IMG/VR virus record: IMGVR_UViG_3300030117_007673
Location: 62,001-126,000 of that record
Length of the DNA: 64,000 bases
DNA from: a virus
Strand: one strand, 5' to 3'
Shown here: positions 8,148 through 48,862 of the stretch, in pieces
Layout of the letters: the number at the start of each line of letters is the position of its first letter
How positions within the stretch are numbered: position 1 is the stretch's first letter
The notes under the pieces: generated by a model
Databases searched by the model: none
What the model saw: the letters and a program-made list of their open reading frames with translations, nothing else
What the model was told of the DNA's origin: nothing
Translations under genes and position numbers: made by a program

Positions 8148-8148
8148 A

Positions 8149-13546: not shown

Positions 13547-13550
13547 CAAA

Positions 13551-13559: not shown

Positions 13560-13581
13560 GGTGTATAGGAGAATTTAATGA

Positions 13582-29028: not shown

Positions 29029-30228
29029 TTGTTATTTCAAACATTAGACAATAAACATAAATGCATAGGAGTATATTATGACGGAAATCTTTACTTCAAT
29101 AATGACCTTCCTGAAGGAATTAGTGAGACGTGGAGCTATGCATCTTTCCTCTCAGATAGAGAGGTTAGATACGGCCATCTGCAGTGCGCTGGTAAGTCTC
29201 TTGATGATGTTTGCCCCGATAATCTAAAAGATGACTGGGAAGAGATCAATAAAAAACTAAAAGCATATATGAGATCTCTTTTTATATCAAAAGTGTCTTT
29301 AGATGACAATTGCTTTTACGACCTAGTGCCGGAAAAGTTTTTATTGGAATTCTGTGAAATAAAAAACAAGATCACAAAACACGTTTTTCAAAATTTTTTG
29401 CCGCCCAAAAATTTGAGATTTTTGACTTTATTAACAAAGGTAGTCGAAGACATAAATCAGCAAAAACTCAATATCGACATTGACGAATTCAAGCCACATC
29501 TTGCTGAGTATAAGGCGAGACAATGGAGAAAGAAAATTGAAAAGCTAGAGCCTTATATCAGGTATGACATATTTGGTACAAAAACAGGAAGATTGACAAC
29601 AAAGAAATATAGTTTTCCAATTCTTACTTTTCCGAAAAAATATCGTTCTATTGTTAAGCCAAATAACGACTTATTTGTCGAGCTGGATTATAACGGCGCA
29701 GAGTTGAGAACTTTGTTGGCTTTATCAGACAAGAAACAACCAACGATGGACATTCATGAGTGGAACAGACGTTATTTGCCGGGGAAAAAGATTTCATCAC
29801 GGCAAGAGGTTAAAAATTCTATTTTTGCTTGGCTGTACAATTCTAAAAAACACCCAAATGAAGAACTGTTGAGAAAAATGTATGACAAGGACAAAGTTTT
29901 GAATGACTATTGGGATGGTGAGATGGTCCGAACTTGCTTCAATAGAGAGATACCAGCCGATAAACATCATGCGTTGAACTACATTATTCAGAGCACCTGC
30001 GCGGATCTTATTTTGCAAAAAACGATTAAGATTTATGATATATTAAAAGATAGGAAATCTAATATTGCCTTTTGTGTGCATGACAGCATAGTTATTGACT
30101 TGCACGCAGATGATAAACACCTTATGAAAGATATTATAGATGAATTCGCAAGCACTAGATTTGGAAGGTTCAAAACAAGCGTTAAGACTGGAAAAGATTT
30201 TGGAAACTTGAAGGAGCTTATATCGTAA
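29029..30228 (+). CDS. Compact family A DNA polymerase (polymerase domain only)
   Basis: A 399-residue protein with family A motifs: TGRLTT (residues 186-191), motif A ELDYNGAELR (catalytic Asp220), motif B with Arg258, Lys262 and Tyr270 (RQEVKNSIFAWLYN; the usual Gly after Tyr is Asn) and motif C CVHDSIVID (His351, Asp352). Catalytic aspartates are intact. There is no 3'-5' exonuclease domain and the N-terminal 180 residues are unfamiliar. The separate 5'-3' exonuclease gene downstream could supply the missing Pol I activity. Start is TTG with a poor ribosome site; no in-frame ATG exists nearby. T4-type phages usually use a family B enzyme. Confidence 0.85.
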   Translation: MLFQTLDNKHKCIGVYYDGNLYFNNDLPEGISETWSYASFLSDREVRYGHLQCAGKSLDDVCPDNLKDDWEEINKKLKAYMRSLFISKVSLDDNCFYDLVPEKFLLEFCEIKNKITKHVFQNFLPPKNLRFLTLLTKVVEDINQQKLNIDIDEFKPHLAEYKARQWRKKIEKLEPYIRYDIFGTKTGRLTTKKYSFPILTFPKKYRSIVKPNNDLFVELDYNGAELRTLLALSDKKQPTMDIHEWNRRYLPGKKISSRQEVKNSIFAWLYNSKKHPNEELLRKMYDKDKVLNDYWDGEMVRTCFNREIPADKHHALNYIIQSTCADLILQKTIKIYDILKDRKSNIAFCVHDSIVIDLHADDKHLMKDIIDEFASTRFGRFKTSVKTGKDFGNLKELIS

Positions 30229-31073
30229 TGGACACTGTGATTGGGTTGGGTCAAGCAGGCTGTAATATTGCTGATGAGTTTGCAAAATATGACCAATATA
30301 AAATATTCAAGATTGATTGTGGTTTGGAAGGGTTACAACAAGAAGGGGTATATGATATGCCATGGCAGGACAGCCCGGAGAGATATGAGGAAAAATGTCC
30401 GGATTTAAGTAAATTTTTTAAAGATGTGACAGGCGAGGTGCTTTTTGTTTTAGGAGGCTCCGGTAATATTTCTGGAGCGGCTCTTTCTATATTAAAACAC
30501 CTGAAACATTGCGATATAAATATATTGTATATTAGGCCCGATTTAGAGTCGATTACAGTAACTAAAGTAAGGCAAGAGTGGGTTGTTTTCAATATTCTTC
30601 AGGAATACGCCAGATCCGGAGTCTTCAAAAGAATTTATCTAGTCGACAATTCAAAGGTGGAAGAATACTTAGGAGATGTTCCTGTAATAGGGTATTATGA
30701 AAGACTAAACAATATGATCGCATCAACGCTTCACATGATCAATGTGTACGACCATATTGAGCCAGTTGTCGATACTTTCTCCAGGCCATTGTCTGGTCGA
30801 AGAGTTTCAACAATTGGATTTTATGATGAAAAAAATAATGAAAATAAATTATTTTATTTACTTGACAATGTTGGCGAAATGCGCTATTATTATGCTATCA
30901 ATAAAGAAAAGTTAGAAACTGATGGAGATATTTTGAAGAAAATTAGAGAACAGATTAAGAGCGAAGTAGAGACAAGTTACGGCATATTCTCAACCAATTA
31001 TGACCAAGATTATGTCTACACAGTTGCACACTCGTCAGATATTCAACAACAAAAAAGCGAAAAAAACGCTTGA
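30228..31073 (+). CDS. Divergent tubulin/FtsZ-like GTPase homologue
   Basis: A 281-residue protein whose landmarks run in the order of FtsZ: VIGLGQAGCN (residues 4-13; FtsZ GVGGGGGN), a strand FKIDCGLEGLQ (FtsZ NTDAQAL), the signature-loop equivalent VLGGSGNISGAAL (74-86; FtsZ GGGTGTGAAP), INILYIRPD (VAVVTKPF), IYLVDNSKVEEYLG (TIPNDKLLKV) and a helix ending MINVYDHIEPVVD where FtsZ has the T7 loop. The GTP-binding loop is poorer in glycine than usual. It is shorter than FtsZ and lacks a clear acidic C-tail. Coupled to the polymerase gene by TAATG. Phage tubulins (PhuZ) centre and carry phage DNA and capsids; a similar role is inferred only. Confidence 0.65.
   Translation: MDTVIGLGQAGCNIADEFAKYDQYKIFKIDCGLEGLQQEGVYDMPWQDSPERYEEKCPDLSKFFKDVTGEVLFVLGGSGNISGAALSILKHLKHCDINILYIRPDLESITVTKVRQEWVVFNILQEYARSGVFKRIYLVDNSKVEEYLGDVPVIGYYERLNNMIASTLHMINVYDHIEPVVDTFSRPLSGRRVSTIGFYDEKNNENKLFYLLDNVGEMRYYYAINKEKLETDGDILKKIREQIKSEVETSYGIFSTNYDQDYVYTVAHSSDIQQQKSEKNA
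30862..30890 (+). promoter_or_regulatory. Possible sigma70 promoter inside the tubulin-like gene
   Basis: TTGACA, 17 bases, TATTAT. It would direct transcription toward the SSB gene about 270 bases downstream, in addition to the better promoter nearer that gene. Being inside a coding region it could be chance. Confidence 0.35.
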
Positions 31074-31098
31074 CAAACAGAATTCATTGTGTTATGAT
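31070..31098 (+). promoter_or_regulatory. Sigma70-type promoter for the SSB operon
   Basis: TTGACA, 17-base spacer, TATGAT in the 84-base gap before the SSB gene. The -35 overlaps the stop codon of the tubulin-like gene. Confidence 0.8.
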
Positions 31099-31157
31099 GG
31101 ATACAGCAGAATAAGAGATTAGTTATTCTGACTTTACTCAAAAATAAGGAGAAAAAC

Positions 31158-31898
31158 ATGGGTATTGATATGGAAAAAATGCGCGCCAGACGGCAAGCGC
31201 TAGATAACAAAAATGGCAATGGGCGAGAGAACTTTTGGCGTCCCCAAGATGGGGAGACAACGGTTCGAATCGTTCCTACAGCTGACGGCGATCCTTTTAA
31301 GGATTTCTGGTTTCATTACAACGTTGGTAATGCACCAGGATTCCTAAGTCCAAAGAAGAACTTTGGAGAAGAGGATGCACTTGATTCTTTTGTTCGTAAG
31401 CTCTATAAGGAGGGTACGGAGGAGAGTATTAAGATGGCCAAATCTTTGTCTGCTAGACAGCGCTTCTTTGCCCCCGTGGTAGTTCGCGGAGAAGAAGATA
31501 AGGGCGTGCGTATTTGGGGCTTTGGCAAGATGGCTTATGAAAAGCTGCTAAATCTTGTTCTTAACCCTGAATATGGCGATATTACAGATTCTGAAACAGG
31601 AACAGATCTTGTAATTCGCTATGGCAAACCGGCAGGGGCTTCTTTCCCTCAAACGGAGATTACCCCTCGCCGCCGGCCCTCACCTTTGTGCGAGGATGAA
31701 TCACAATGTGCGGAATGGTTGGACACTATTCCAAACCTTGATGAACTCTTTGAGCGCAAAAGCCCAGGAGAGGTCGAAGCTATTCTTGATGAATATTTAT
31801 CGGGTAATGTCGATGATAATTCTTCTGATAACGTAGAGAAATATAATGCCGAATCTGGAGATTCGGTAGATAAGGCTTTTTCCGAGCTTCTATCGTAA
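31158..31898 (+). CDS. Single-stranded DNA-binding protein (T4 gp32-like)
   Basis: A 246-residue protein with basic N-terminus, an OB-fold core (TTVRIVPTADGDPFKDFWFHY, shown here by its start TTVRIVPTADGD) and a long acidic C-terminal tail ending DKAFSELLS, the layout of gp32-type SSBs in which the acidic tail recruits replication proteins. The Cys/His zinc-binding motif of T4 gp32 is not evident. AAGGAG precedes the ATG and a strong sigma70-type promoter lies upstream, so it is probably abundant early. It heads a block with UvsX and nucleases. Residue CEDESQC may form a metal or disulfide element. Confidence 0.85.
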   Translation: MGIDMEKMRARRQALDNKNGNGRENFWRPQDGETTVRIVPTADGDPFKDFWFHYNVGNAPGFLSPKKNFGEEDALDSFVRKLYKEGTEESIKMAKSLSARQRFFAPVVVRGEEDKGVRIWGFGKMAYEKLLNLVLNPEYGDITDSETGTDLVIRYGKPAGASFPQTEITPRRRPSPLCEDESQCAEWLDTIPNLDELFERKSPGEVEAILDEYLSGNVDDNSSDNVEKYNAESGDSVDKAFSELLS

Positions 31899-31965
31899 GT
31901 TCTCTCTCACCCGCAGGGAGGCACGGGGCTACAGGTGTCTCAAATATTTAAAGGAGGTTAAAATA

Positions 31966-32259
31966 ATGAAAATTTATACTACTATTTTACTAACGATGTT
32001 TATCGGTGCATGCACTGGTAATACAAGCGTTGTCGAGAAGCCAGCTGGCGCTCAACTAGACCAGAAATATGAAGTGGAAGGTCAATCTGGCAGCTCTGTT
32101 GGGATTTCTCCCGAGTTGGAGGAAAAGATACAGAAGGCAATTAAAGAAAGAGCACCTAAAAGTGCTAATTCGTCAGAAGTTGTTCCAACAGTTGTTGTAA
32201 CACCTGAAGTCGAACCTGATGTTGAAACATCAGTTACCAAAGTCCCAGAAAAGGAGTAA
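31966..32259 (+). CDS. Small phage lipoprotein
   Basis: A 97-residue protein with a lipoprotein signal: KIYTTILLTMFIGAC, in which IGAC is the lipobox and Cys16 the lipidation site. The mature part is polar, with a helix (SPELEEKIQKAIKER) and a Val/Pro/Glu-rich C-terminus, probably unstructured. AAAGGAGG gives a strong ribosome site. It lies between SSB and UvsX, an odd place for a membrane protein. Phage lipoproteins commonly block superinfection or act in lysis (Rz1); early location favours superinfection exclusion, but this is inference. Confidence 0.75.
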   Translation: MKIYTTILLTMFIGACTGNTSVVEKPAGAQLDQKYEVEGQSGSSVGISPELEEKIQKAIKERAPKSANSSEVVPTVVVTPEVEPDVETSVTKVPEKE

Positions 32260-32271
32260 TAGGATTTAATT

Positions 32272-33441
32272 ATGGCGAGAAAAGCAAAAAATAAAGCAGG
32301 CAAACTTTCTATGTCAGATATGCGTAGCCTTATCAACAAAAAGGCGGGGATGTCTGTTGCACACGATTTAACTAATAATAACCCAACAGAGGTGAAGGAT
32401 TGGATTCCAACCGGATCTCGATGGCTGGATTCTATTATTTGTCGTGGAAAGCTCACCGGTATTCCAGTAGGGAAAGTTGTTGAAATCGCTGGTTTGGAAG
32501 CGACAGGGAAGTCTTACATGGCTGCTCAGGTCGCTGCAAATGCCCAGAAGATGGGTGTTGATGTAATCTATTTTGATTCTGAATCAGCAATCGATCCAAC
32601 TTTCTTGGAAAGAACCGGATGTGACCTAGAAAACTTGCTTTATATTCAAGCTCAGAGCGTTGAGTTCGTGCTTGAAACAATTGAAGATCTTCTCGCTAAT
32701 AATGATAATCGTATGCTCTTTATTTGGGACAGTCTTGCTCTGACTCCATCCGTTAGTGATGTCGAAGGCGATTTCAACCCTCTCTCATCAATGGCCGTAA
32801 AGGCCAGAATACTCGCCAAGGGAATGTCCAAACTAACTGTTCCGATTGCGAATAGTCAGTCTACATTCTTAGTTCTTAATCAACTTAAGACAAACATCAC
32901 TAGAAGCCCCTCTGAGGCTATGGTTGAGCCTTATATGACGCCTGGTGGAAAAGCCATGATCTATGCGTACTCTCTCCGTATTTGGCTTACAGGAAGAAAA
33001 TCAAAGGCCAGCTATGTCCTCGACGAAAGAGGGTTTAGGGTGGGGTCAGAGGTCAAGGCTACTCTCAAAAAGAGTCGCTTTGGCACCCAAGGAAGACAAG
33101 CAAGTTTTAAAATTTTATGGGGAGAACAAATCGGTGTTCAAGATGAAGAGAGTTGGTTCGAAGCAATCAAGGGATCAGAACATCTTAAACAAAGTGGAGC
33201 GTGGTATACGCTTCTATATAAAGATGGCTCAGAAGATAAGTTTCAGCCATCAAAATGGAAAAATATGTTGACAAACGAGAAGTTTCGTGATAGAGTATTA
33301 GATATAATGGATGAAGAGGTCATCCTTAAATTTGATAAACGACAAGGCGAAGCAGCAGACTTTTATGATATTGAAAACGAAGATAACGAAGAAAACACGC
33401 AGCTATCTGTCGTTGGCCAAGAGGATGGCTCTGCAGAGTGA
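32272..33441 (+). CDS. uvsX: UvsX/RecA-type recombinase
   Basis: A 389-residue RecA-superfamily strand-exchange ATPase. Walker A is GLEATGKS (residues 74-81), the catalytic Glu region is YFDSESA (100-106) and Walker B is MLFIWDSLA (148-156); VLNQLKTNITRSP corresponds to the RecA loop 2/motif region. T4-type phages use UvsX for recombination-dependent replication and repair. The C-terminus is acidic. It starts 13 bases after the lipoprotein gene and its 3' end overlaps the deaminase gene in another frame. Confidence 0.93.
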   Translation: MARKAKNKAGKLSMSDMRSLINKKAGMSVAHDLTNNNPTEVKDWIPTGSRWLDSIICRGKLTGIPVGKVVEIAGLEATGKSYMAAQVAANAQKMGVDVIYFDSESAIDPTFLERTGCDLENLLYIQAQSVEFVLETIEDLLANNDNRMLFIWDSLALTPSVSDVEGDFNPLSSMAVKARILAKGMSKLTVPIANSQSTFLVLNQLKTNITRSPSEAMVEPYMTPGGKAMIYAYSLRIWLTGRKSKASYVLDERGFRVGSEVKATLKKSRFGTQGRQASFKILWGEQIGVQDEESWFEAIKGSEHLKQSGAWYTLLYKDGSEDKFQPSKWKNMLTNEKFRDRVLDIMDEEVILKFDKRQGEAADFYDIENEDNEENTQLSVVGQEDGSAE

Positions 33442-33772
33442 TTCTGGCCGAGCCTGCCACGGAGCAGTCCTTGTCAGGGGTGGCAAAATCATAAACGCTG
33501 GACATAACAAGTGGGCATATTCGTCCTTCGGAAAAAGATTCAGACACAGAGATAAAGGCATCTCAACGTTGCACGCAGAACTAGCAACAGTGCTCAACTT
33601 AGATCGTTCTATTACACAGGGGGCAGACATATATGTTGTCAGAGTAAACAGCAAGGGTAAGTTCAAGATGAGCAAGCCTTGCCCAATGTGCGAGACAGCG
33701 CTTAAACATGTCGGAATAAAAAGAGTATACTATACAACAGATAACGGAGACTTGGAGTATTACAAACTATGA
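33365..33772 (+). CDS. CMP/dCMP-deaminase-family protein
   Basis: Zinc-dependent deaminase fold: LHAELATVL (zinc His and catalytic Glu) and CPMC (two zinc Cys), with the upstream strand HGAVLVRGGKIINAGHN. dCMP deamination would feed dTMP synthesis together with the dUTPase of this phage, though the substrate cannot be read from sequence and a nucleic-acid deaminase is possible. The chosen ATG gives 135 residues and overlaps the UvsX gene by 77 bases; the frame stays open to an ATG at 33311 and another at 33419 is also possible. The overlap makes the true start uncertain. Confidence 0.8.
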   Translation: MILKTKITKKTRSYLSLAKRMALQSDSGRACHGAVLVRGGKIINAGHNKWAYSSFGKRFRHRDKGISTLHAELATVLNLDRSITQGADIYVVRVNSKGKFKMSKPCPMCETALKHVGIKRVYYTTDNGDLEYYKL

Positions 33773-33809
33773 ATATGTTCGCAATTGAAAAGGAGTGTCA
33801 GGTTATCTA

Positions 33810-34070
33810 ATGGAAGAGAGATTTTTAAAGGAACTATCAGAATATTTTCCAAAAATGAAATTTTCACTTATCAATAAGGATATCAGCAACGAGGGCTACG
33901 TGCCCTTTAGTTACAAAGAGAGTCAAACCCTCAAAGCAGGGAGAAAGAAGCTTAAAATATCATGGAGCCCTCCAATATCAGAGATTAAAAGCGAAGAATA
34001 TTATCAAAGGCTTATGAACGAGTGCATAGACGAAGTTGATAAGCTCTATCCAAAAAGGAAATGGTTTTGA
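33810..34070 (+). CDS. Hypothetical protein
   Basis: An 86-residue protein starting MEERFLKELSEYFPK with a strand-rich middle (KLKISWSPPISEI) and a helical end (ECIDEVDKLYPKRKWF). No family recognised. An upstream in-frame GTG (33795) is an alternative start; the ATG is preferred because AGGAG and AGG both lie upstream of it. Overlaps the exonuclease gene by 10 bases. Confidence 0.7.
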   Translation: MEERFLKELSEYFPKMKFSLINKDISNEGYVPFSYKESQTLKAGRKKLKISWSPPISEIKSEEYYQRLMNECIDEVDKLYPKRKWF

Positions 34071-35032
34071 AAAGAGTATTAATAATTGACGCTCTCAACA
34101 TTTATTTGAGAGCTTACATATCCAACCCTTCAATCGCGTTGAATGGGCAACCCATCGGAGGGGCTTTTGGGTTTCTAAAATCTCTTCAGAAATATTGTAG
34201 AGAGATGAAGCCAGACCACATTGTGGTTTGTTGGGACGGGCCTGACGGAAGCAGGAAGAGAAAGACGATGCACAAAGGCTATAAGGACGGCAGAAAACCT
34301 GTTCGTCTCAATCGCAATGTTCGCATTATGTCAGAGGAAGAGGAACAGAACAATAAAGTATGGCAACAGCAGAGATTGATAACATATCTCAATTGTTTGC
34401 CAGTTTCTCAGATCATGATTGAGAAAATTGAAGCAGATGACATTATTAGTTATGTGTCACAAATGCCACACTTCAAGGATGCTCAAAAAGTTATTGTTTC
34501 TAGTGATAAGGACTTTTATCAGCTTTGCAATGATAAAACAGTGGTATATAGGCCTGTCCAAAATCAGTTCATAAACGCCAATAGGCTAGTGGAAACTTTT
34601 GGCATCCATCCGAATAACTTCGCCCTCGCAAGGGCTATTTGCGGCGATAAGAGCGACAATTTAGACGGTGTAGGGGGTGCAGGCCTTAAGACCGTTGCTA
34701 AGCGGTTTCCGTTCCTCTCAGAGGCAAATACGCACGAGATAAACACCCTCCTGAAGGCATGCGAAGACGTTGAGAAGCCACTAAAAGTTCATCATAATAT
34801 TCTTAGCGGAGAAGCTAAAATACAGAGAAATTATAAGATGATGCAACTTTATACTCCTCTTATTTCAGTGCAAGCAAGTCAGAAGATCAAGTATGCAATC
34901 AAAGAGATGACACCAGAATTGAACAAAACTCAGTGCATCGGATTGATGATTGAAGATGGTATTGGTGCATATGATTGGTCAGAAATGTTTGCAACAATGA
35001 AAAGAATTTGCTTGACAACAAGCGAAAAGTGA
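34061..35032 (+). CDS. 5'-3' exonuclease / flap endonuclease
   Basis: A 323-residue FEN/PIN-like nuclease: LIIDALN (residues 7-13), KPDHIVVCWDGPDGSRKR, the acidic cluster EADDIIS, VIVSSDKDFYQL and the helix-hairpin region GDKSDNLDGVGGAGLKT. All metal-binding aspartates are present. It processes RNA primers and flaps and complements the exonuclease-less family A polymerase. It is longer than the Pol I exonuclease domain and similar to T4 RNase H-type or T7-type phage exonucleases. Starts inside the end of the preceding gene. Confidence 0.9.
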   Translation: MVLKRVLIIDALNIYLRAYISNPSIALNGQPIGGAFGFLKSLQKYCREMKPDHIVVCWDGPDGSRKRKTMHKGYKDGRKPVRLNRNVRIMSEEEEQNNKVWQQQRLITYLNCLPVSQIMIEKIEADDIISYVSQMPHFKDAQKVIVSSDKDFYQLCNDKTVVYRPVQNQFINANRLVETFGIHPNNFALARAICGDKSDNLDGVGGAGLKTVAKRFPFLSEANTHEINTLLKACEDVEKPLKVHHNILSGEAKIQRNYKMMQLYTPLISVQASQKIKYAIKEMTPELNKTQCIGLMIEDGIGAYDWSEMFATMKRICLTTSEK

Positions 35033-35040
35033 TATATAAT
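35012..35040 (+). promoter_or_regulatory. Consensus sigma70 promoter for the nuclease/methylase pair
   Basis: TTGACA, 17 bases, TATAAT, a perfect consensus. The -35 lies in the last codons of the exonuclease gene; the -10 is just beyond its stop, about 29 bases before the endonuclease start. Confidence 0.85.
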
Positions 35041-35068
35041 GGTGTTCATAATATAAATGAGGTTATTG

Positions 35069-36425: not shown

Positions 36426-36437
36426 TTTTGATATAGT
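36409..36437 (+). promoter_or_regulatory. Sigma70-type promoter for the ParB-like gene
   Basis: TTGACA, 17 bases, TATAGT; the -35 is inside the last codons of the methylase gene and the -10 just after its stop, about 70 bases before the next start. Confidence 0.75.
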
Positions 36438-36507
36438 ACTTGTATGTTCTCAAATAATACGAGAACGTTTTATTCTTAAAATCAATTAAAAATAAAGGAG
36501 AAATTTA

Positions 36508-37554
36508 ATGAATAGCCGACAATTCAATGAAAAGACAAAAGTCGACCCCCATTTTCATAGGAAATGTTTTTGGACAAATGTCAATAACGTAAACATTTCC
36601 GAAGAAGATGATCAAATCAGAGACGGAGGAATCGTTGATTCTCATGTGTCAGATCTTGCGAGTCAGATTTTTATGGACGGTCAAAAAATTCCTATTACTG
36701 TCGAATCAGATGGCAATGGAGGTTGGAACGCCGTAGATGGAAGTCATCGCATTGGCGGGGTAAAGCTTAATGATAAAGCGCATCCAGGAGAGGGTTATGA
36801 CCAAATTTTCGTTTACGAAGAAAAATTCAGTTCTGAAGCGGAAAGGGTCTTGTACCAAAAGGATTCCAACGAGCATTTAGTTGCTAAGAAGAACCATGTC
36901 AACGATGCAGTTGCTTCAATCAGAAAGCTGATGGAGATGAAAAACGATCCCAACGTTCCTGACGTTCTTCAAAGGGACATATCCACCGAGACGGATCCTA
37001 AATGTTATATGAAGGACCTTGAAGCTTGGATTAAGGATAACTATAGTTTCACAAGTAGGGAGTATAAGAGCATTCTCAAAAAGGTGACAAGTGATTATAC
37101 CAACAGTAAGGTTAAGAACTACACCAAGCCTGGTCTTGTCGAAGAATTCTCGACTAATAATACTATAGGATGGGTCGGGGGAAAGGCTGGAGATGAGAGC
37201 AATGGCTATGTTTTATACCCTGTGAATCAAGCAAGCCATATTTTTCCAAATATTACTGGCAACTCTTATAAAAAGAAGACCAAGAACAAGAATATCCAAT
37301 CGGTAGTTGTTCTATGGGAAGGTAACACTGTTGGAAAAGAAGGTTGCCATATTGATGATTACCGACGCAAGTTGGTTGAAAGCATCAATGAGGTTAATCA
37401 ATCTCATCTTCTCAAGAGAGGCATGAAGCTCGTCGACAAGGTGTTTCTTGCACCTCAGAAGATTGGCGATGTGAAGGAAAATTTAAATTCTTTCTACGAA
37501 GTGCCTTACAACAATGGCAGTTTTTCTGTCAACCTCCCCAGAAAGGGTTGGTGA
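36508..37554 (+). CDS. ParB/Srx-fold protein
   Basis: A 348-residue protein whose N-terminal part has the ParB/sulfiredoxin pattern: VSDLASQIFMDGQKIPITVE followed by VDGSHRIGG (residues 77-81 DGSHR), the phosphate-binding motif of this superfamily. Relatives include ParB CTPases, nucleases and the DGQHR proteins of DNA-modification systems. The C-terminal 200 residues are unfamiliar. It is an independent unit with its own promoter, an AAAGGAG ribosome site and a terminator. Its location just after a nuclease/methylase pair suggests a DNA-related or regulatory role. Confidence 0.65.
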   Translation: MNSRQFNEKTKVDPHFHRKCFWTNVNNVNISEEDDQIRDGGIVDSHVSDLASQIFMDGQKIPITVESDGNGGWNAVDGSHRIGGVKLNDKAHPGEGYDQIFVYEEKFSSEAERVLYQKDSNEHLVAKKNHVNDAVASIRKLMEMKNDPNVPDVLQRDISTETDPKCYMKDLEAWIKDNYSFTSREYKSILKKVTSDYTNSKVKNYTKPGLVEEFSTNNTIGWVGGKAGDESNGYVLYPVNQASHIFPNITGNSYKKKTKNKNIQSVVVLWEGNTVGKEGCHIDDYRRKLVESINEVNQSHLLKRGMKLVDKVFLAPQKIGDVKENLNSFYEVPYNNGSFSVNLPRKGW

Positions 37555-37576
37555 TCTTTGATAGTTTAGTAGATGT

Positions 37577-37606
37577 GCCCAGCCATGAATTTCATGGCTG
37601 GGCTTT
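37577..37606 (+). terminator. Rho-independent terminator
   Basis: GCCCAGCCAT / ATGGCTGGGC stem (10 bp, extendable) with loop GAATTTC, followed by TTTCT. It ends the ParB-like transcript just 3 bases before the tRNA. Confidence 0.8.
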
Positions 37607-37608
37607 CT

Positions 37609-37682: not shown

Positions 37683-37698
37683 CTCAATAAGGACAATT

Positions 37699-39081
37699 AT
37701 GACAAAAGAAGAGAGAGTAGATTTTTCAAAATATGGCAAGGACTTCCAAGAGAAGCTTTGCCAACTGATTCTGCAAGACAGAATGTTTTGCGATCAGATT
37801 GAAGAAGTTTTAGATATACAGTTTTTGGAATTGAGATACCTTCGAGTATTTGTGCAAAAGGTATTTCAGTATAGGATTAAATACGAAGTTCATCCAACGA
37901 CTCGCACAATGCTTACTTTGATGCGTTCTGAGTTGGATGATGAGAACGACGCGACACAAAAGCAAGTAAGAGATTATTTCTCCAGAATTTATAAGTCCGA
38001 CATGGAAGTTGAGGGGGAAGAGTATATCAAAGATACTGCTCTTGACTTCTGTAAAAAACAAGTCTTGAAAGAAGCCATGCTGAAAAGCGTCGGCCTTCTT
38101 AAAAACTCCTCTTTTGATGAGATATCTAACACAATCAATGAAGCTCTTAAATTAGGGTCTGATAATAATTTTGGTTACGATTATTTGAAAGATTTTGAAC
38201 AAAGATTTGAAATTAAAGTCAGGAACCCTGTTTCAACAGGCTGGGATCATATTGACAGGCTTTCCAAGGGTGGCTTAGGAAGAGGGGAGCTTGGAGTTGT
38301 TATTGCCCCTACTGGTGCTGGCAAATCAATGGTATTGGTTCATCTCGGTGCGCAAGCCGTTAAAGCAGGCAAGAATGTTGTTCACTATACCTTGGAATTA
38401 GCTGATACTGTGGTGGCGTCAAGATATGATAGTTGTATAACTGGAGTACAGCTTTCAGATTTGTTTACTTTCAAAGAGCAGATTTATGAAACTGTTCAAG
38501 ATCTTGACGGTGGCTTAATTGTGAAGGAATATCCAACAAAGTCCGCTTCAACTAGGACTCTAGAGAATCACCTCGAAAAATTGAGACAGCGTGATTTTAA
38601 AATTGACATGATCCTCGTTGATTACGGGGATCTTTTGAAACCAAATGTTATCCGAAAAGAGAAAAGAATGGAGTTAGAATCTACTTACGAAGAGTTAAGA
38701 GCGATAGCTCAAAAATTCAGCTGTCCAGTTTGGACAGCATCGCAAACTAATAGGTCCGGATTGAATGCTGAAGTCATAACAATGGAATCAATTTCAGAAG
38801 CGTTTAATAAATGCTTTGTTGCTGATTTTATCTTTTCGGTTTCCCGGACTATTGATGACAAAAATGCGAACACAGGAAGAATGTTTGTGGCTAAGAATAG
38901 ATTCGGTCCAGATGGACTTATTTATCCTTTACTAATGGACACTTCAAATGTTAAAATAGAAGTGTTGGAACCAACGGGTGAGACAGTTAATGATATTGTT
39001 GTTAAGTCAGCAAAAGAACAGGCAGAAGTACTAAAAGAAAAATACAAGGAGTTTAAAAATGGGAGAAAAGAAGGTGTTTGA
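37699..39081 (+). CDS. Replicative DNA helicase (DnaB / T4 gp41-like)
   Basis: A 460-residue RecA-fold hexameric helicase. An N-terminal helical domain (about 170 residues) is followed by GWDHIDRLSKGGLGRGEL, Walker A APTGAGKS (203-210), VHYTLELA, Walker B IDMILVDYGDLL and VWTASQTNRSG (motif H3/H4). It lacks an obvious fused primase. Unwinds the replication fork ahead of the phage polymerase. No separate primase or loader was recognised in the window. The 3' end overlaps the RNR gene by 23 bases. Confidence 0.9.
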   Translation: MTKEERVDFSKYGKDFQEKLCQLILQDRMFCDQIEEVLDIQFLELRYLRVFVQKVFQYRIKYEVHPTTRTMLTLMRSELDDENDATQKQVRDYFSRIYKSDMEVEGEEYIKDTALDFCKKQVLKEAMLKSVGLLKNSSFDEISNTINEALKLGSDNNFGYDYLKDFEQRFEIKVRNPVSTGWDHIDRLSKGGLGRGELGVVIAPTGAGKSMVLVHLGAQAVKAGKNVVHYTLELADTVVASRYDSCITGVQLSDLFTFKEQIYETVQDLDGGLIVKEYPTKSASTRTLENHLEKLRQRDFKIDMILVDYGDLLKPNVIRKEKRMELESTYEELRAIAQKFSCPVWTASQTNRSGLNAEVITMESISEAFNKCFVADFIFSVSRTIDDKNANTGRMFVAKNRFGPDGLIYPLLMDTSNVKIEVLEPTGETVNDIVVKSAKEQAEVLKEKYKEFKNGRKEGV

Positions 39082-41491
39082 CAGTGAAGAAGTTAAGGTA
39101 GCTACGCTAGAATATTTTAAGCAAGATAATTTGGCGACTAATGTTTGGATGACAAAATATGCTTTAAAAAACAAGAAAGGTCAGTTTGTTGAAAAAACTC
39201 CTGACGACATGCATAACCGACTAGCTGATGAGTTTGCTAGAATGGAGGAAAAGTTCGGAGGAGATTTGGCACTAGAAAGAGAAGAGATTTATGAGTTGTT
39301 AAAGGACTTTAAATATATCGTCCCACAAGGCTCCCCTATGATGGGTATTGGCAACAACTATGTGAACGTGTCTTTATCCAATTGTGTCGTTGTGGACTCT
39401 CCGAAAGATAATATCTCTTCAATTATGGATTCAGGTAAACATCTTGCCAATCTTTTCAAGCGCCGTTGTGGTGTTGGTCTTGATATCTCTGAACTCCGTC
39501 CCGAAAATGCCCCTGTAAACAACTCTGCTGGAACTACAACAGGGGCGTGGTCTTTTGCTGATTTTTACTCTTATGTCTGTCGTATGATTGGGCAGAATGG
39601 TCGACGTGGCGCTTTGATGATCACAATGGACGTGAGACATCCTGATATCGAGCAGTTTGTTGCAATGAAGCATGATCTGACAAAAGTAACAGGAGCAAAT
39701 GTTTCAGTTAAAATAAGTGATGACTTCATGAAAGCAGTTGAGAACAAAGAAAAGTTTACTTTGCAGTTCCCTGTCGAATCAGACAAGCCTTCGATCACTA
39801 AAGAGATCGAAGCAGGTGAATTGTGGGATCTTATCGTTGAGTCAGCGACAAAAACTGCAGAACCTGGGCTTATGATGTGGGATAACATCGTAAACAACCT
39901 GCCAGCGGAGAGTTATGCTGATGTTGGCTTTAAGACGATTACAACTAACCCTTGTGGAGAAATCCCTCTTTCTGCTTATGATAGTTGTCGATTGATTTCT
40001 ATTAATCTTAAGAACTTGGTAAAGAACCCCTTTAAAAAACCAGAGTTTGATTTTGATAAGTTACACGAAGTAGCTAGCAAGGCGATGAGATTATCAGATG
40101 ATCTTGTGGAGCTTGAAATCGAAAAACTTGAAAACATTATTAAAGTGTGCGATACAAAGGATGAGAGGCAGTTGTGGAAATCTCTTTTGAAGGCCTGTAA
40201 AGATGGAAGAAGAACAGGCCTAGGCACACATGGGTTAGCAGATGCTATCGCGTGTATGAACCTAAAATATGATTCGAAAGAGGCAGTAGAGGTAATTGAT
40301 AAAATTTATGAGACTTTGAGAGATGCTGCCTATTTGGAGAGCGTTAGTTTGGCCATGGAACGCGGAGCCTTTGGCGTCTTCGATTGGGACAAGGAAAAAG
40401 ACAACGAATATATCAAAAGGCTGCCAAAGAACATTCGTGAGGCGATTGAACAGTACGGAAGAAGAAATATTTCAATTCTTACCAATGCTCCAACAGGATC
40501 AGTTTCGATTATGTCTCAAACAAGTTCAGGACTTGAGCCAGTGTTTCGCAACTCTTACAGAAGAAGACGAAAGCTTTCTCATAACGAAAAAGATGTCACG
40601 CCGGATTTTGTTGATGAACTTGGAGATAAATGGTTGGAATATAATGTATTTCACCACAATCTGCAGGAATATATGGACTTGCTGGAGACAGAAGAGATTC
40701 CTGACTTTTTCGTCGAGAGCGATCAAATTGATTGGCCCAAGAGAGTAGATATTCAGGCTGCAATCCAAAAGAGCATTGATCATTCGATTAGTTCAACAAT
40801 TAACCTACCAAAGGGTACAGACCCCAGTGTTGTTGGCGAGCTTTATTTCGAAGGATGGAAAAAGGGACTAAAAGGTATCACAGTATATGTAGATGGAAGC
40901 AGAACTGGCGTTCTTGTGACTGATAACCAAGAAGCCGAGAAACAGTTTCCTCAAAACGGAGCACCTAAACGCCCAGAGGAGCTTCCTTGTGATATTCACC
41001 ACACTACAATTCAGGGTGAGAAGTGGACAATATTGGTTGGCTTATATGATAATAAACCATATGAAGTTCTTGGAGGTTTGTCTAACTTAATCGAGATTCC
41101 AAAGAAGCACAAGAAAGGAGTATTGTCAAAGCATAGCTTTAAGACAAAAAACAATCGCTATGACTTAACAATTGGAGAGGGAGACGATGAATTTGTAATT
41201 AAAGATGTTGTGACAGTCTTTGATAACCCAACAAATTCGGCATTCACAAGAATGATCTCTCTATCTCTTCGTCACGGTGCTAAGCCAAGTTTCTTGGTTG
41301 AACAGTTGCAAAAAGATCGAGACAGCGACATGTTCAGTTTTTCAAGGTGTGTTGCTAGAATTATGAAAAATTATATTCAGGATGGCGAGGTGCCCAGCGA
41401 CAAGGAGTGTCCTGCGTGCGGCGCAGAGACTTTAATCTATCAGGATGGCTGCGTTACTTGCTCCACCTGCGGTTATGCAAAATGTGGTTGA
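39059..41491 (+). CDS. nrdJ: Ribonucleotide reductase, class II (B12-dependent)
   Basis: An 810-residue reductase that makes dNTPs from ribonucleotides. Features include SLSNCVVVDS (active-site Cys), NPCGEIPLSAYDSC (catalytic region), TNAPTGSVSIMSQTSSGLEP and a C-terminal zinc/redox tail CPACG...CSTCGYAKCG. The absence of an adjacent beta subunit and the CxxCG tail point to the adenosylcobalamin-dependent class II enzyme, which works without oxygen-dependent radical formation but needs vitamin B12 from the host. The phage glutaredoxin (59020) or a host thioredoxin could be its reductant. Starts inside the helicase gene. Confidence 0.9.
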   Translation: MGEKKVFDSEEVKVATLEYFKQDNLATNVWMTKYALKNKKGQFVEKTPDDMHNRLADEFARMEEKFGGDLALEREEIYELLKDFKYIVPQGSPMMGIGNNYVNVSLSNCVVVDSPKDNISSIMDSGKHLANLFKRRCGVGLDISELRPENAPVNNSAGTTTGAWSFADFYSYVCRMIGQNGRRGALMITMDVRHPDIEQFVAMKHDLTKVTGANVSVKISDDFMKAVENKEKFTLQFPVESDKPSITKEIEAGELWDLIVESATKTAEPGLMMWDNIVNNLPAESYADVGFKTITTNPCGEIPLSAYDSCRLISINLKNLVKNPFKKPEFDFDKLHEVASKAMRLSDDLVELEIEKLENIIKVCDTKDERQLWKSLLKACKDGRRTGLGTHGLADAIACMNLKYDSKEAVEVIDKIYETLRDAAYLESVSLAMERGAFGVFDWDKEKDNEYIKRLPKNIREAIEQYGRRNISILTNAPTGSVSIMSQTSSGLEPVFRNSYRRRRKLSHNEKDVTPDFVDELGDKWLEYNVFHHNLQEYMDLLETEEIPDFFVESDQIDWPKRVDIQAAIQKSIDHSISSTINLPKGTDPSVVGELYFEGWKKGLKGITVYVDGSRTGVLVTDNQEAEKQFPQNGAPKRPEELPCDIHHTTIQGEKWTILVGLYDNKPYEVLGGLSNLIEIPKKHKKGVLSKHSFKTKNNRYDLTIGEGDDEFVIKDVVTVFDNPTNSAFTRMISLSLRHGAKPSFLVEQLQKDRDSDMFSFSRCVARIMKNYIQDGEVPSDKECPACGAETLIYQDGCVTCSTCGYAKCG

Positions 41492-41515
41492 CATTTTCAC
41501 AGAAATTAGTATAAT
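41488..41515 (+). promoter_or_regulatory. Sigma70-type promoter for the GroES-like gene
   Basis: TTGACA, 16 bases, TATAAT, 23 bases upstream of the GroES-like start codon; the -35 overlaps the RNR stop. Confidence 0.8.
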
Positions 41516-41538
41516 AGTATAATAAAGAAGGAGTTAAG

Positions 41539-41814
41539 ATGAAATTTGAACCTAGAAATAGACACTTGCTAGTGATGAAAGTTGAGAAAGAAGAGGAGCA
41601 GCAACCTAGCGTGTTGGTCCCAGACGGTTACGCGAAAACCGAAGAGTATACACTTTTGAAAGTTTTGGACTTAAGTCCAGATTGTTCAAAGGTAGCAAGG
41701 AAGAATGAAAAGGTCATTGTCCCCACTCATTTAATTCAAGATGTTGAAGTAGATGGAGAAAATTTCTCAATTGTTCTGGAAAATCATATTTGCGGAGTGG
41801 TGTATAATAAATGA
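41539..41814 (+). CDS. GroES / T4 gp31-like co-chaperonin
   Basis: A 91-residue protein with the GroES layout: KFEPRNRHLLVMKVE (GroES: IRPLxDRVLVKxxE), a mobile-loop position (EQQPSVLVPDGY), LLKVLDLSPD (GroES VVAVGxG), a strand VIVPTH and the end VEVDGENFSIVLENHICGVV (GroES: VKxDGEEYLIxxExDILAV). The match in order and length is good although glycine positions are divergent. It would cap GroEL chambers and, like T4 gp31, allow folding of the capsid protein; the phage GroEL gene lies 14 kb away. Overlaps the lysin gene by 4 bases (ATGA). Confidence 0.8.
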   Translation: MKFEPRNRHLLVMKVEKEEEQQPSVLVPDGYAKTEEYTLLKVLDLSPDCSKVARKNEKVIVPTHLIQDVEVDGENFSIVLENHICGVVYNK

Positions 41815-44096: not shown

Positions 44097-44128
44097 GCTT
44101 TTTTGAATTAATGGAACTAATTAATAGT

Positions 44129-44437
44129 ATGAAAATAACCAAATCACAACTAAAACAAATCATTAAAGAGGAGCTTGAGAAAGCCCTCAGTGAAAGAGGC
44201 TTTGGCGAGGGCGAACCAGCAAAGGACGAATGGTCTAAGAAAAAGAATGTTAGTCTTGAAGAAGAGGACGAAGAAGATATAGAAGAAAAGAAGCTTACAA
44301 AACCAGAAAAAAAAGAAAAAGAGAGACTGGTCAAGGGTATGAAAGACAAAAAAGATGATTTTGAAAAACGTTATCCTGGGCGCGGGGAAGAAGTCATGTA
44401 CGCTACGGCGACAAAAATGGCGAAAAAAAGAAAATAA
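44129..44437 (+). CDS. Small charged protein with KITKSQLKQIIKEEL leader
   Basis: A 102-residue protein, almost wholly charged, beginning KITKSQLKQIIKEELEKAL, then an acidic patch and a basic end with YPGRGEEVMYATATKMAKK, an ending I associate with small proteins of marine T4-like phages. The leader is shared in pattern with three other genes here and is proposed as a capsid-targeting signal. The reading frame extends upstream into the previous gene to 44066; the ATG at the leader is preferred because it restores the shared N-terminus. Function unknown. Confidence 0.7.
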   Translation: MKITKSQLKQIIKEELEKALSERGFGEGEPAKDEWSKKKNVSLEEEDEEDIEEKKLTKPEKKEKERLVKGMKDKKDDFEKRYPGRGEEVMYATATKMAKKRK

Positions 44438-45249
44438 TGGCCTTAACTAAGAAACAATTTAAACAAATTCTTGTAAAAGAACTGGAAGATGCTTTCAGGA
44501 CTTTCGACAGAGATGACTGGCTCAAAAGAGCTTGTCCCGGGCCAAAGTGCCCAGATGATGAAGAAGGTGGTGAAAAATTATCAAAACAAACTCCTCTGTC
44601 TGTGACGAAGCAGCAAAAGGAAGTGCCAGAACTTGAAATGAAGCCTGGCGTATGGGAACAGTCATTTAGATTATATTTACAAAAAGTTATGAAACTATCT
44701 CCCGAACATGCCGAAAGACTAGCAGGAAATGTTTATGGCGCTCTCAAAGCTAGAAAGATACCCGTTGCTGAATCAAATCTATATCAAGCGACCGAGGAAG
44801 TATTGTCAGAAAAGATGCAAAAAGTCTCAAGTCGAAAAGACGTGAAAAAACTTGCAGCAGCAGGACTCAAGCCTGGAGGCATCTTTAATCGAGGGGGAAA
44901 TTCGTGGTTTGCTTGGAACCCAGAAGGAAGCGAAGTTAGAAAATATACTGATAAAAAATTGGCAATGGCGTGGGCAGGTCAGAATAAAAAGAAACCCGAA
45001 GAAAGAAAGCCTGTCACGGCGACGGGTGAATTCTCCGAAAAAGATCTTGGCCTAGTTGGGAGAATTGTAATGAAACACGTTCAAAGACGCGCCAGTGATG
45101 ACCCGGATTTCATGGAAAAATTCACTAGTGAAGTCGATTTGCAGAAAAAGTTTATTAAAGATTTGGAAAAGATAATTATCAGGCAAATGGCACGTCGTCA
45201 ATATGAAAAAGATGAAATTAAAAAAGCCTTGGCTGAAGATAGAAAATAA
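44437..45249 (+). CDS. Hypothetical protein with related N-terminal leader
   Basis: A 270-residue basic protein starting ALTKKQFKQILVKELEDAF, the same leader pattern as its upstream neighbour. A CPGPKCP motif follows (residues about 34-40). Middle: helical (QSFRLYLQKVMKLSPEHAERL), then a small glycine-rich module (GGIFNRGGNSWFAWNPEGSEV) that might be SH3/WD-like, then a charged helical C-terminus. No family recognised. It starts one base within the previous stop (AATGG). Possible internal virion protein (inference). Confidence 0.7.
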   Translation: MALTKKQFKQILVKELEDAFRTFDRDDWLKRACPGPKCPDDEEGGEKLSKQTPLSVTKQQKEVPELEMKPGVWEQSFRLYLQKVMKLSPEHAERLAGNVYGALKARKIPVAESNLYQATEEVLSEKMQKVSSRKDVKKLAAAGLKPGGIFNRGGNSWFAWNPEGSEVRKYTDKKLAMAWAGQNKKKPEERKPVTATGEFSEKDLGLVGRIVMKHVQRRASDDPDFMEKFTSEVDLQKKFIKDLEKIIIRQMARRQYEKDEIKKALAEDRK

Positions 45250-45297
45250 AGTAAATTAAATAATTTACAAACTATGTACTCCGGTGGAGTTATAAAA

Positions 45298-45381
45298 ATG
45301 ATTGAAAAAATAGAGTTCGTCTCGGTAATAATAGGGGCGCTCGGCATTATTGCCAGCGCTTCTTTTTTGTTATTTATATAA
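45298..45381 (+). CDS. 27-residue membrane peptide
   Basis: A short ORF in a 205-base gap: a charged start (MIEKIEF) and one hydrophobic segment (VSVIIGALGIIASASFLLFI), the classic layout of a single-pass micropeptide. GGTGGAG lies 8 bases before the ATG and an ACTATGTA element (one mismatch from the late-promoter motif) is 20 bases upstream at 45271. It could be a holin-like or lysis-associated peptide given the lysin 3 kb upstream, but no homology is claimed. Confidence 0.5.
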   Translation: MIEKIEFVSVIIGALGIIASASFLLFI

Positions 45382-45392
45382 AAATAAAATAC

Positions 45393-45421
45393 TTGACACG
45401 AAGAAGTAGTTGTGTTATATT
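45393..45421 (+). promoter_or_regulatory. Sigma70-type promoter for the DnaE gene
   Basis: TTGACA, 17 bases, TATATT, 34 bases upstream of the DnaE start codon (RBS AGAGG). Confidence 0.8.
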
Positions 45422-45454
45422 ACCTGAGCAGTTAAATAATAGAGGTAATTATAA

Positions 45455-48400
45455 ATGACTAAAATCCCTTTTGTTGGATTACACGCACACAGCGGTTTGA
45501 GTTTGAATGATGGTCTAGGATACCCCCAAGACCATATGGATTTCGCCTATGAGAATGGCTCAGATGCCCTTGCTTTGACCGATCATGGACATATGAATGG
45601 TCTACCCTATCAAGTGCTGCACGCACGCAAAATGAAGGCAGAGGGCAAAAACTTTAAGCCGATCTTTGGAGTTGAAGCGTACTTCAATCCTTCTCTAGAG
45701 CAATGGCGAGAAGAATATGAAAAGGCAAAACAAGAAAAGAAAAAGGGAATTAAGAAGGATATAGAACTATCTATTGAGGACGAGAGGGCTTCAAAACAGA
45801 AGGTTGTAGATATACTCAAAAAGAGGAATCACCTAATTCTGATCGCTCAGAATCAAACGGGCTTGAACAATATATTCAAGCTTGTGTCGGAGAGTTATAA
45901 AGATGAAAACTTTTATAGATACCCTAGAATTGATTATAAGCTTCTTGACTTATATAGTGATGGAGTTATTGCCTCTAGTGCTTGTCTTGGTGGTGTTTAT
46001 GCTGGTGATTATTGGGACTATCGTGACGTTGGCAGTGACGCTATTCTAGACGCTATGCGTCAGACAACGAAGCGTATGAAGGACATATTTGGAGAACGGT
46101 GGTTCGGTGAGATTCAATGGAACAATATTCCTGAACAGCACGAACTTAACCAGTATATTATTCAGGTTTGTAAGGAATATGATGTAGAGCTTATTTCAAC
46201 TGCTGACAGTCATTACCCAACTCCTGACGCTTGGAAGGATAGAGAACTATATAAAAGGATTGGATGGCTGGGTAAGGGTGGTCTGCCAGAATACATGTCT
46301 TCTGAGCTTCCCTCTGGAGTTGAAGAAATTGGGTATGAGCTTTATCCCAAAAATGGCGAACAGATGTGGGAATCGTACCACAAGTATTCAAAACTGGTTG
46401 GTTTTGATTATGATGATGAGCTAGTTATGGATTCGATTAAAAGAACAGACTACATTGCTCATGATCTTATTGAAGATTTTATGCCCGATAATGAAGTTAG
46501 ACTTCCAAGTTTTGTTGTGCCCGCAGGCAAGACAGACATTCAAGCTTTGACAGAGGACTGCCTGACAGGTCTGAAAGAAAAAGGCCTAGGCGATAAGGAA
46601 GGGTACATTGATAGGCTCAAGGAAGAACTCTTTGTTATTCGGGACCGTGGATTTGCCAAGTATTTCTTGACTATGAAGGCGATTGCAGACAAAGCTGCCT
46701 CTGTTCAACTGACAGGTCCCGGTCGAGGTTCTGCTGCAGGTTCTCTTGTAGCTTACGTACTTGATATCACACAGGTTGATCCTATCAAGCACGGGCTTTT
46801 GTTCTCAAGGTTCTTGCGTAAGGATGCAACAGATTATCCTGATATTGATTATGATGTAAGCGATCCAATGGAAGTGAAGGAAATGTTGATCGAAGAATGG
46901 GGAGACGACACAGTTGCTCCTATTTCAAACTACAACACCCTTCAGTTGCGTTCGCTTATCAAAGATGTCTCAAAGTTCTATGATGTGCCGTTTACAGAAG
47001 TTAATACTGTAACTGGCAAGATGATCTTCGAAGCAACCCCGATTGCAAAGAAGGTCCATGGTATTAAGTCTGGTGTTTATACTCCAACCTTCGAGGAGGT
47101 TATGGAATACTCGGAGACTTTGAAGAAGTTCCTTAACAAGTACCCTCACGTCAAAACTCATATTGAGGCCCTTCTAGGGCAGGTTAGGAGCGTCTCTAGG
47201 CACGCAGGAGGCGTCGTTGTAGGCGAGAACCTAGACAAGTGGATGCCGCTTGTAAACAGTGGCGGCGTGCGGCAAACCCCTTGGTCTGAGGGGCAGAATG
47301 TAAGACATCTTGAACCTCTTGGCTTTATTAAGTTTGATATTCTTGGTCTGGCTTCTTTGAGAATGATTGAAGGTTCTATCAGGCATATTCTGAAAAGACA
47401 TCATGGCATCGACGATCCAACTTTCGAGGATGTAAAGAAGTTTTACAATGAAAAGCTTCATCCCGATGTTATCAACTTCAATGACCAGAATGTATACAGG
47501 AATGTGTTTCAGAAAGGTAATTGGACAGGTATCTTCCAGTTTACAGAAAAAGGAGCACAGGAGTTTTGTAAAAAGGCGAAGCCGAAAAATTTGATTGATA
47601 TTTCTGCTATCACTTCAATCTATCGCCCAGGTCCTCTTGGAGCGGATGTTGATAAATCTTATGTGGATGCAAAGAGAGATCCAGGAAGTGTAGAATATAT
47701 CAACAAACTTGTAAAGGATGTTACAAAAGAAACTTATGGCTTCTTGATTTTCCAAGAACAGATTGCTCTACTGGCTCACAAGTTGGGTAAAGACATTTCT
47801 CTTGATGAAGGCAACGCCCTACGAAAGTATCTAACTAAGAAAGGCTCTGGCGATGCTACAAAGAAGAAAGAAAAGATTTATAGCAAGTTCGTTGAAGGCT
47901 GTATTGAAAAGAAACTATCGATGGGCCAAGCCGACAAGCTTTGGCAGACGTTCGAATACTTCTCTGGATATGGGTTCAACAAGTCGCACGCTGTTAGTTA
48001 CAGTATTCTTAGTTACCAGTGCGCATGGCTGCTGAATTACTATTCTGTTGAATGGACCGCAGCCTTCCTTGATAAAGAACCAGAGAGTAGAAAAGAAAAG
48101 GCTATCAACATTGCTAAGTCGATGGGCTTCAAGATTCAACCTCTTGACATTAATTCTTCTGGAACTGTGTGGGAGATCTCAGATGACGGTAAAACTCTTA
48201 TCCAACCTTTGACTTCAATCAAGGGTCTTGGAGACAAGGCTATTGAACAGATTTTGAACCATAGGCCGTTTAATACTGTGGAAGAATTACTTTTTAATGA
48301 CGATATCGTCTACAGCAAACTAAATAAAAAGGCACTTGATGTTCTTGTGCGTAGTGGGACCTTAGACAGCTTGATTGATGATAGATTCTCAGGAAGGAAA

Positions 48401-48862
48401 CATTTCTGGTCTGCGGCAGTTGTTGACCGGCCTAAGAAAGAAAAGAAGCTACATGAAAACATTGAGCTTTACAGACCTGAAGGAGACTTCACCGTTGAGG
48501 AGAGAATTGCCAACAAGGCGACTTTGACTGGTGTTTTTCCAATTGAACTTGTCTTGAATGACGAAATCAAAGCGAAGCTGGATGAATACTTTGTTCCGCC
48601 CATCGCTGATTATGACAAAGATCTGCAAGTAGTGTGGTTTATTCCTCGAGAGATAATTAAAAGAAAGACCAAGAATGGTAAAGAATATTGGATTGTCAAT
48701 GTAATTGATTCAACAAGTAACCAAACTACGATTAGATGTTGGGGTGTAAAAGAGAAAGATGTTATTCATATTAATCGGCCTTACATGTGTAAGATTGACT
48801 ACAGTGAGCAATGGGGTTTCTCTTCGAGATCCATAAAACATAATTGGAGATTGTTGGGATAA
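45455..48862 (+). CDS. dnaE: DNA polymerase III alpha subunit (family C, DnaE-type)
   Basis: An 1135-residue replicative polymerase with full domain order: PHP domain (VGLHAHSGLSLNDG, ALALTDHGHMNGL), palm with GPGRGSAAGSLVAYVL and catalytic aspartates in YPDIDYDVSDP, the third Asp region FDILGLASLRMIE, fingers (IYRPGPLGADVD, YGFLIFQEQIALLAH, YGFNKSHAVSYSILSY), a helix-hairpin-helix (SIKGLGDKAIEQIL) and a C-terminal OB-like region. Catalytic residues appear intact. It is close to bacterial DnaE in length (about 1160). It has its own promoter. Encoding a family C replicase is unusual for T4-type phages, and the genome also carries a family A enzyme. No clamp or clamp loader is seen in the window. 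Confidence 0.95.
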   Translation: MTKIPFVGLHAHSGLSLNDGLGYPQDHMDFAYENGSDALALTDHGHMNGLPYQVLHARKMKAEGKNFKPIFGVEAYFNPSLEQWREEYEKAKQEKKKGIKKDIELSIEDERASKQKVVDILKKRNHLILIAQNQTGLNNIFKLVSESYKDENFYRYPRIDYKLLDLYSDGVIASSACLGGVYAGDYWDYRDVGSDAILDAMRQTTKRMKDIFGERWFGEIQWNNIPEQHELNQYIIQVCKEYDVELISTADSHYPTPDAWKDRELYKRIGWLGKGGLPEYMSSELPSGVEEIGYELYPKNGEQMWESYHKYSKLVGFDYDDELVMDSIKRTDYIAHDLIEDFMPDNEVRLPSFVVPAGKTDIQALTEDCLTGLKEKGLGDKEGYIDRLKEELFVIRDRGFAKYFLTMKAIADKAASVQLTGPGRGSAAGSLVAYVLDITQVDPIKHGLLFSRFLRKDATDYPDIDYDVSDPMEVKEMLIEEWGDDTVAPISNYNTLQLRSLIKDVSKFYDVPFTEVNTVTGKMIFEATPIAKKVHGIKSGVYTPTFEEVMEYSETLKKFLNKYPHVKTHIEALLGQVRSVSRHAGGVVVGENLDKWMPLVNSGGVRQTPWSEGQNVRHLEPLGFIKFDILGLASLRMIEGSIRHILKRHHGIDDPTFEDVKKFYNEKLHPDVINFNDQNVYRNVFQKGNWTGIFQFTEKGAQEFCKKAKPKNLIDISAITSIYRPGPLGADVDKSYVDAKRDPGSVEYINKLVKDVTKETYGFLIFQEQIALLAHKLGKDISLDEGNALRKYLTKKGSGDATKKKEKIYSKFVEGCIEKKLSMGQADKLWQTFEYFSGYGFNKSHAVSYSILSYQCAWLLNYYSVEWTAAFLDKEPESRKEKAINIAKSMGFKIQPLDINSSGTVWEISDDGKTLIQPLTSIKGLGDKAIEQILNHRPFNTVEELLFNDDIVYSKLNKKALDVLVRSGTLDSLIDDRFSGRKHFWSAAVVDRPKKEKKLHENIELYRPEGDFTVEERIANKATLTGVFPIELVLNDEIKAKLDEYFVPPIADYDKDLQVVWFIPREIIKRKTKNGKEYWIVNVIDSTSNQTTIRCWGVKEKDVIHINRPYMCKIDYSEQWGFSSRSIKHNWRLLG

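Follow-up and report, generated by a model that had tools for sequence, protein, structure and literature searches.

A small exonuclease-less family A DNA polymerase beside a DnaE polymerase in a marine T4-like phage lineage

Phages that encode a DNA polymerase mostly encode one each. The phage analyzed in the present work, a member of a marine T4-like (far-T4) lineage in which a DnaE is found instead of the family B replicase of T4, encodes two intact polymerases, a small enzyme of family A and a DnaE of family C. This pair is a further well-supported example of a class described in 2024 (PMC11348598), and it is common to the whole virus lineage. Yutin et al. 2024 (PMC11348598) reported the small enzymes of that class, named divPolA1, from 14 phages, including immuto, whose genomes also encode a regular polymerase belonging to family A, B or C. 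The divPolA1 enzymes are characterized by a lost or inactive exonuclease, a truncated thumb, retained catalytic residues in the palm and a conserved replication neighbourhood downstream, and the neighbourhoods of the regular polymerases in the same phages also encode GroEL/GroES (PMC11348598). Yutin et al. inferred that divPolA1 participates in replication and described the part played by the regular polymerases as “less obvious” (PMC11348598); a literature search for the name divPolA1 found no paper beyond theirs and its preprint. What is new in the present analysis is its scale, a clade-by-clade contrast, an analysis of PHP and exonuclease domains, the selection results and a tree of DnaE.

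The window, by which is meant the whole 64,000-nucleotide stretch of DNA that was analyzed, covers positions 62001-126000 of a linear source record of 132,130 bp, and one strand carries nearly all of its genes. The record is shorter than its relatives (147-204 kb) and linear, and may be incomplete, which limits the claims of absence made below. T4-like structural genes in the record encode Gp23, the sheath, the portal protein Gp20, the prohead protease and the terminase. The nearest named phages by capsid protein are Flavobacterium phage immuto, Microcystis phage Mel-JY01 and Rhodothermus phage RM378, the last a far-T4 phage (for the far-T4 background see PMC4360716), and two uncultured phage assemblies are also among the nearest. 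Outside the window, positions 1-14443 of the full record hold a cluster of genes for sugar and surface functions (glycosyltransferases, NeuB, a cytidylyltransferase, asparagine synthase and a PIG-L deacetylase). The features of the window on which the argument draws are these:

11732..13477, plus strand, T4-type major capsid protein Gp23, which marks the T4-like kinship
29029..30228, plus strand, small family A DNA polymerase lacking an exonuclease, homologous to divPolA1, 399 aa, an uninterrupted ORF with a TTG start
30228..31073, plus strand, protein of 281 aa whose gene lies between those of PolA and SSB and shares one base with the PolA gene, conserved in the marine clade
31158..31898, plus strand, single-strand DNA binding protein (SSB), gp32-like, phrog_1192
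32272..33441, plus strand, UvsX/RecA-like recombinase
34061..35032, plus strand, 5'-3' exonuclease on a separate gene, with Pol I/FEN-type nuclease domains
37699..39081, plus strand, DnaB-like replicative helicase
39059..41491, plus strand, ribonucleotide reductase large subunit
45455..48862, plus strand, DnaE (C-family) DNA polymerase, 1135 aa, an uninterrupted ORF
55401..56972, plus strand, GroEL-type chaperonin, downstream of DnaE

The small family A polymerase (PolA) matches the Pfam family DNA_pol_A above the curated cut-off, and its motif residues are R188, D220, E225 and R227 (the last three in motif A), R258, K262, F266 and Y270 (motif B), N317 and Q321, and H351 and D352 (motif C), each of which is invariant in a set of 20 PolAs reaching down to 35% identity. 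By motif position we take these residues to correspond, in the order listed, to R668, D705, E710, R712, R754, K758, F762, Y766, N845, Q849, H881 and D882 of the Klenow fragment. The Glu of motif C is replaced by Ser in the window, and either Ser or Glu is found in relatives. An AlphaFold model of the protein (mean pLDDT 91) matches Bst Pol I with a Z of about 25 over 358-378 residues, model residues 1-395 lying on chain residues 316-876, so that PolA shares with bacterial Pol I (Klenow, Bst Pol I) both its fold and its palm and finger residues; unlike Pol I, it is a stand-alone polymerase with a shortened N-terminal part and no 3'-5' exonuclease, and the 5' nuclease is on a gene of its own. 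The initial annotation had described a 399-residue enzyme with intact catalytic residues and no proofreading domain, and at the level of sequence this description holds: the 3'-5' exonuclease families PF01612 and PF00929 are matched neither in PolA nor elsewhere in 10 records that include the phage genome. Residue 1 of the model aligns onto the region of Bst Pol I that holds the vestigial exonuclease, so that a shortened vestige of this domain may have been retained. A separate 3'-5' exonuclease gene serving PolA was also considered and was rejected, because the neighbouring genes at 27658-29025 and 30228-31073 gave no match and neither family occurs in the 10 records.

The relationship to divPolA1 was established with a profile (HMM) of the marine PolAs, which detects the small PolA of immuto with an E of 6.8e-17 (1e-4 by tblastn). 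The two systems are alike in having a homologous small PolA with an intact palm and a lost exonuclease, replication genes downstream of it, a regular polymerase and GroEL/GroES. They differ in that the PolA of the window is only about 20% identical to that of immuto, and in that its motifs A and C (DYNGAEL and HDS) are nearer to those of Pol I than are the DFDGYHL and YDA of immuto.

The DnaE matches the Pfam families DNA_pol3_alpha, finger, PHP and HHH above curated cut-offs, and its catalytic residues D463, D465 and D628, which correspond to D401, D403 and D555, the three catalytic Asp residues of the E. coli enzyme, are invariant among 69 DnaEs. Alignment to the DnaEs of Taq and M. tuberculosis identifies nine metal ligands in the PHP domain (H10, H12, D19, H44, E74, H126, C177, D251 and H253), each kept in 68-69 of the 69 relatives. 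The nine-ligand pattern is found in PolC and most DnaE1 enzymes and is absent in DnaE3 (Timinskas et al., PMC3919608). The claim that the PHP and palm motifs are complete is thus borne out, and proofreading by the PHP domain, which had been proposed as a possibility, is plausible because all nine ligands are present. The enzyme resembles bacterial DnaE1 and the DnaE-like Pol III alpha subunits of Bacillus, Streptomyces and Rhodococcus phages in its catalytic Asp residues, its nine PHP ligands and its order of PHP, palm, fingers, HhH and OB-like domains; it differs from them in an identity of about 30%, in forming its own branch, and at its C-terminal end. In the predicted model, whose overall confidence is low (mean pLDDT 71, pTM 0.44), the strands of the OB-like beta-barrel lie between residues 1059 and 1125 of 1135, and the S-G-x-L-D landmark is followed by 168 residues, compared with about 230-330 in the sampled bacterial DnaEs. 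Because the barrel stands at the end of the protein and so few residues follow the landmark, the bacterial C-terminal domain past the OB fold seems to be missing. The canonical beta-clamp motif Q-x-x-L-F was not found after the HhH domain of DnaE; a conserved N-I-E-L-Y at residues 1002-1006 has the same offset (35) as most of the bacterial motifs found and is a candidate clamp motif, in a degenerate form at the end of a predicted helix.

The initial annotation had proposed that the DnaE gene might have been captured from a host, and a tree was computed from the marine phage DnaEs, 45 bacterial DnaEs from among the matches listed and 7 DnaEs of other phages, a sample in which alpha- and gamma-proteobacteria are not represented. 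The marine phage DnaEs are united in a single long-stemmed branch (SH-aLRT 100), and every bacterial sequence falls on one side of a branch with a support of 100, leaving the phage clade outside all 45. A recent capture from a sampled bacterial lineage is not supported. The broader proposal, that the gene was recently captured from a bacterial host and is redundant with the host Pol III, accounts for the bacterial type of the enzyme and the bacterial order of its C-family domains, and is nevertheless highly improbable given the monophyly, long stem and outside position of the phage clade, its identity of about 30% to bacterial DnaE, and the presence of DnaE throughout the marine clade. The retention of all nine PHP ligands also speaks against it, since the DnaE1 of alpha-, beta- and gamma-proteobacteria never has all nine (Timinskas et al., PMC3919608).

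Both genes are under strong purifying selection and are maintained. Against its closest relatives PolA has a dN of 0.06-0.10 and a dS of 1.7-2.4, and DnaE a dN of 0.03-0.05 and a dS of 0.7-2.2 (Nei-Gojobori); these figures refer to the closest relatives, synonymous sites being saturated in further ones. With catalytic residues invariant and dN far below dS, neither gene looks inactivated, and the original reading, that family A and family C are each represented by an intact polymerase, is upheld by the uninterrupted frames, the Pfam matches, the motifs and the selection results together. That one of the two is a decaying relic could be argued only from the shortening of the small PolA and the Ser in its motif C, and is so improbable in the face of the strong purifying selection, the invariant catalytic residues of both enzymes and the lack of stop codons in relatives that we reject it on selection and motifs.

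The small PolA heads a block in which it is followed by SSB, UvsX, the 5' exonuclease, which the initial annotation had correctly recognized as a separate gene, and DnaB. This block is collinear in all 80 IMG/VR loci, drawn from three clades, that have at least 9 kb of sequence downstream of the small PolA, of which 12.5 kb was examined: SSB and UvsX are called in 80 loci each, the 5' exonuclease in 79 and DnaB in 75, the five missing DnaB calls being marine loci in which the gene lies beyond the 12.5 kb or was undetected. The 281-aa protein that follows PolA is present in 31/31 marine-clade loci and was not seen at that place in the other two clades; its N-terminus gives a weak Tubulin/FtsZ match (E 0.043, below the cut-off), and a sequence comparison with solved structures found no relative. 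A ParB-like gene at 36508-37554, with few relatives among the marine loci, lies upstream of the helicase between a DNA methyltransferase and a tRNA-Ile (anticodon tat). The DnaE gene is flanked by a GroES-like co-chaperonin at 41539-41814 (a weak Cpn10 match) and by GroEL at 55401-56972, with Hsp20 and Clp-protease matches nearby.

A DnaG-like primase is encoded outside the window, at positions 49145-50086 of the full record, and also in five large relatives. A search of the genome for a clamp and clamp loader, which the initial annotation had suggested, was carried out: it found no sliding clamp of the T4 (gp45) or bacterial beta type, and neither a clamp loader nor a ligase was detected among the scanned ORFs of the record, which is possibly incomplete. 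A family B replicase, named beforehand as the finding that would speak against the original reading, occurs neither in the 132,130-bp record nor in 22 related records, any of which may be incomplete. The phage is thus like T4 in its capsid type, portal, sheath, gp32-like SSB, UvsX and DnaB-like helicase, and unlike T4 in that a gp43 family B polymerase and a gp45-type clamp were not found in it or in its relatives.

The distribution of the two polymerases across the clades shows a constant small PolA and a changing partner. The small PolA is also present in 16 of the 19 records found via DnaE, and the three without it are records of at most 77 kb. Conversely, DnaE is present in 5/5 marine-clade records of 147-204 kb that were found via the small PolA alone, and was not seen in two records of only 89 and 106 kb; no family B polymerase was found in the marine-clade records retrieved in this way. 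In immuto and Mel-JY01, too, the block begins with a homologue of the small PolA. Eight records of the immuto clade (102-167 kb) have neither DnaE nor PolB, and a second, full PolA is found in 6/6 records of at least 126 kb, that of immuto itself having a 3'-5' exonuclease domain. In the Mel-JY01 clade, PolB is found in 7/9 records and DnaE in none. A tree of the helicase and one of PolA divide the sequences into the same three clades, and within a clade the second polymerase is of a single kind. The small PolAs of the other two clades (locus 13552-14778 for Mel-JY01, locus 1-1326 for immuto) have D[YF]D[AG][FY]H as motif A and YDA as motif C; they retain the catalytic Asp residues but have neither the usual Glu of motif A nor the usual His of motif C, and these motif differences suggest that the activity of the small PolA may differ between clades. 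In RM378 the small PolA was not detected; read by eye, the gene annotated there as “similar to DNA polymerase I” resembles a 5' exonuclease, and the “DNA polymerase” gene resembles the exonuclease part of family B. The 484-kb uncultured phage LR756508 (locus LR756508.1:47415-48068) has a small PolA together with a distinct DnaE-like frame, very divergent and only 574 aa long, which is perhaps split, recoded or interrupted, and which is perhaps an independent pairing of families A and C.

From these observations we infer that DnaE is probably the replicase, proofreading with its PHP domain, and the small PolA an accessory polymerase for gap filling or recombination. DnaE would most likely copy the genome, and its own PHP domain would most likely do the proofreading because no DEDD exonuclease was found; since no clamp was found and the domain after the OB fold is seemingly absent, its processivity would need the clamp of the host or an unrecognised phage clamp. 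The small PolA would probably be a low-processivity member of the SSB-UvsX-5' exonuclease-DnaB block, most likely filling gaps once the separate 5' exonuclease has removed primers, as a Pol I divided over two genes, and/or extending recombination intermediates with UvsX. In favour of this division of labour, which resembles the bacterial one proposed in the initial annotation, are the constraint on both genes, the conserved order of the block, the variation of the second polymerase while the small PolA stays, the agreement between the PolA and helicase trees, the DnaG-like primase, the nine PHP ligands and the participation in replication that Yutin et al. ascribe to divPolA1; against it, the small PolA and not DnaE sits in the replisome gene block, and the regular polymerases had the less obvious role for Yutin et al. 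(PMC11348598). The assignment of the copying roles, the activity of the PHP domain and the use of a host clamp belong to the inferred part of the model.

The same constancy of the small PolA and its invariable place in the block, with a second polymerase that lies elsewhere and changes family, a contrast also noted by Yutin et al. (PMC11348598), could mean that the core polymerase of the replisome is the small PolA, with DnaE as an auxiliary for repair, host takeover or late synthesis. We consider this unlikely: an enzyme of 399 aa with no exonuclease and no clamp found would have to replicate a 130-200 kb genome without proofreading, which would be unusual, and in every clade a second polymerase is retained whose family is known for replication, this second enzyme having an exonuclease domain in immuto and an intact PHP site in the present phage. 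It is slightly more doubtful that the small PolA extends primers or serves one strand and then hands over to DnaE, in the manner of Pol alpha; its kept linkage to SSB and helicase, the separate DnaG-like primase and its constancy beside differing main polymerases would agree with such a role, although the linkage fits recombination or gap filling equally well.

Beyond the preferred division of labour between a replicative DnaE and an accessory small PolA, there is some chance, albeit a modest one, that divPolA1 is the constant and essential core of the far-T4 replisome, extending primers or acting on one strand at an obligatory two-polymerase fork into which a main replicase from family A, B or C would be plugged as an exchangeable part. 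A small polymerase that stays fixed while a large one swaps between families A, B and C constitutes a natural experiment that can separate the indispensable components of a replication fork from the exchangeable ones, and a DnaE with an intact PHP domain, in a genome in which no DEDD proofreader was detected, provides a test case for proofreading by PHP.
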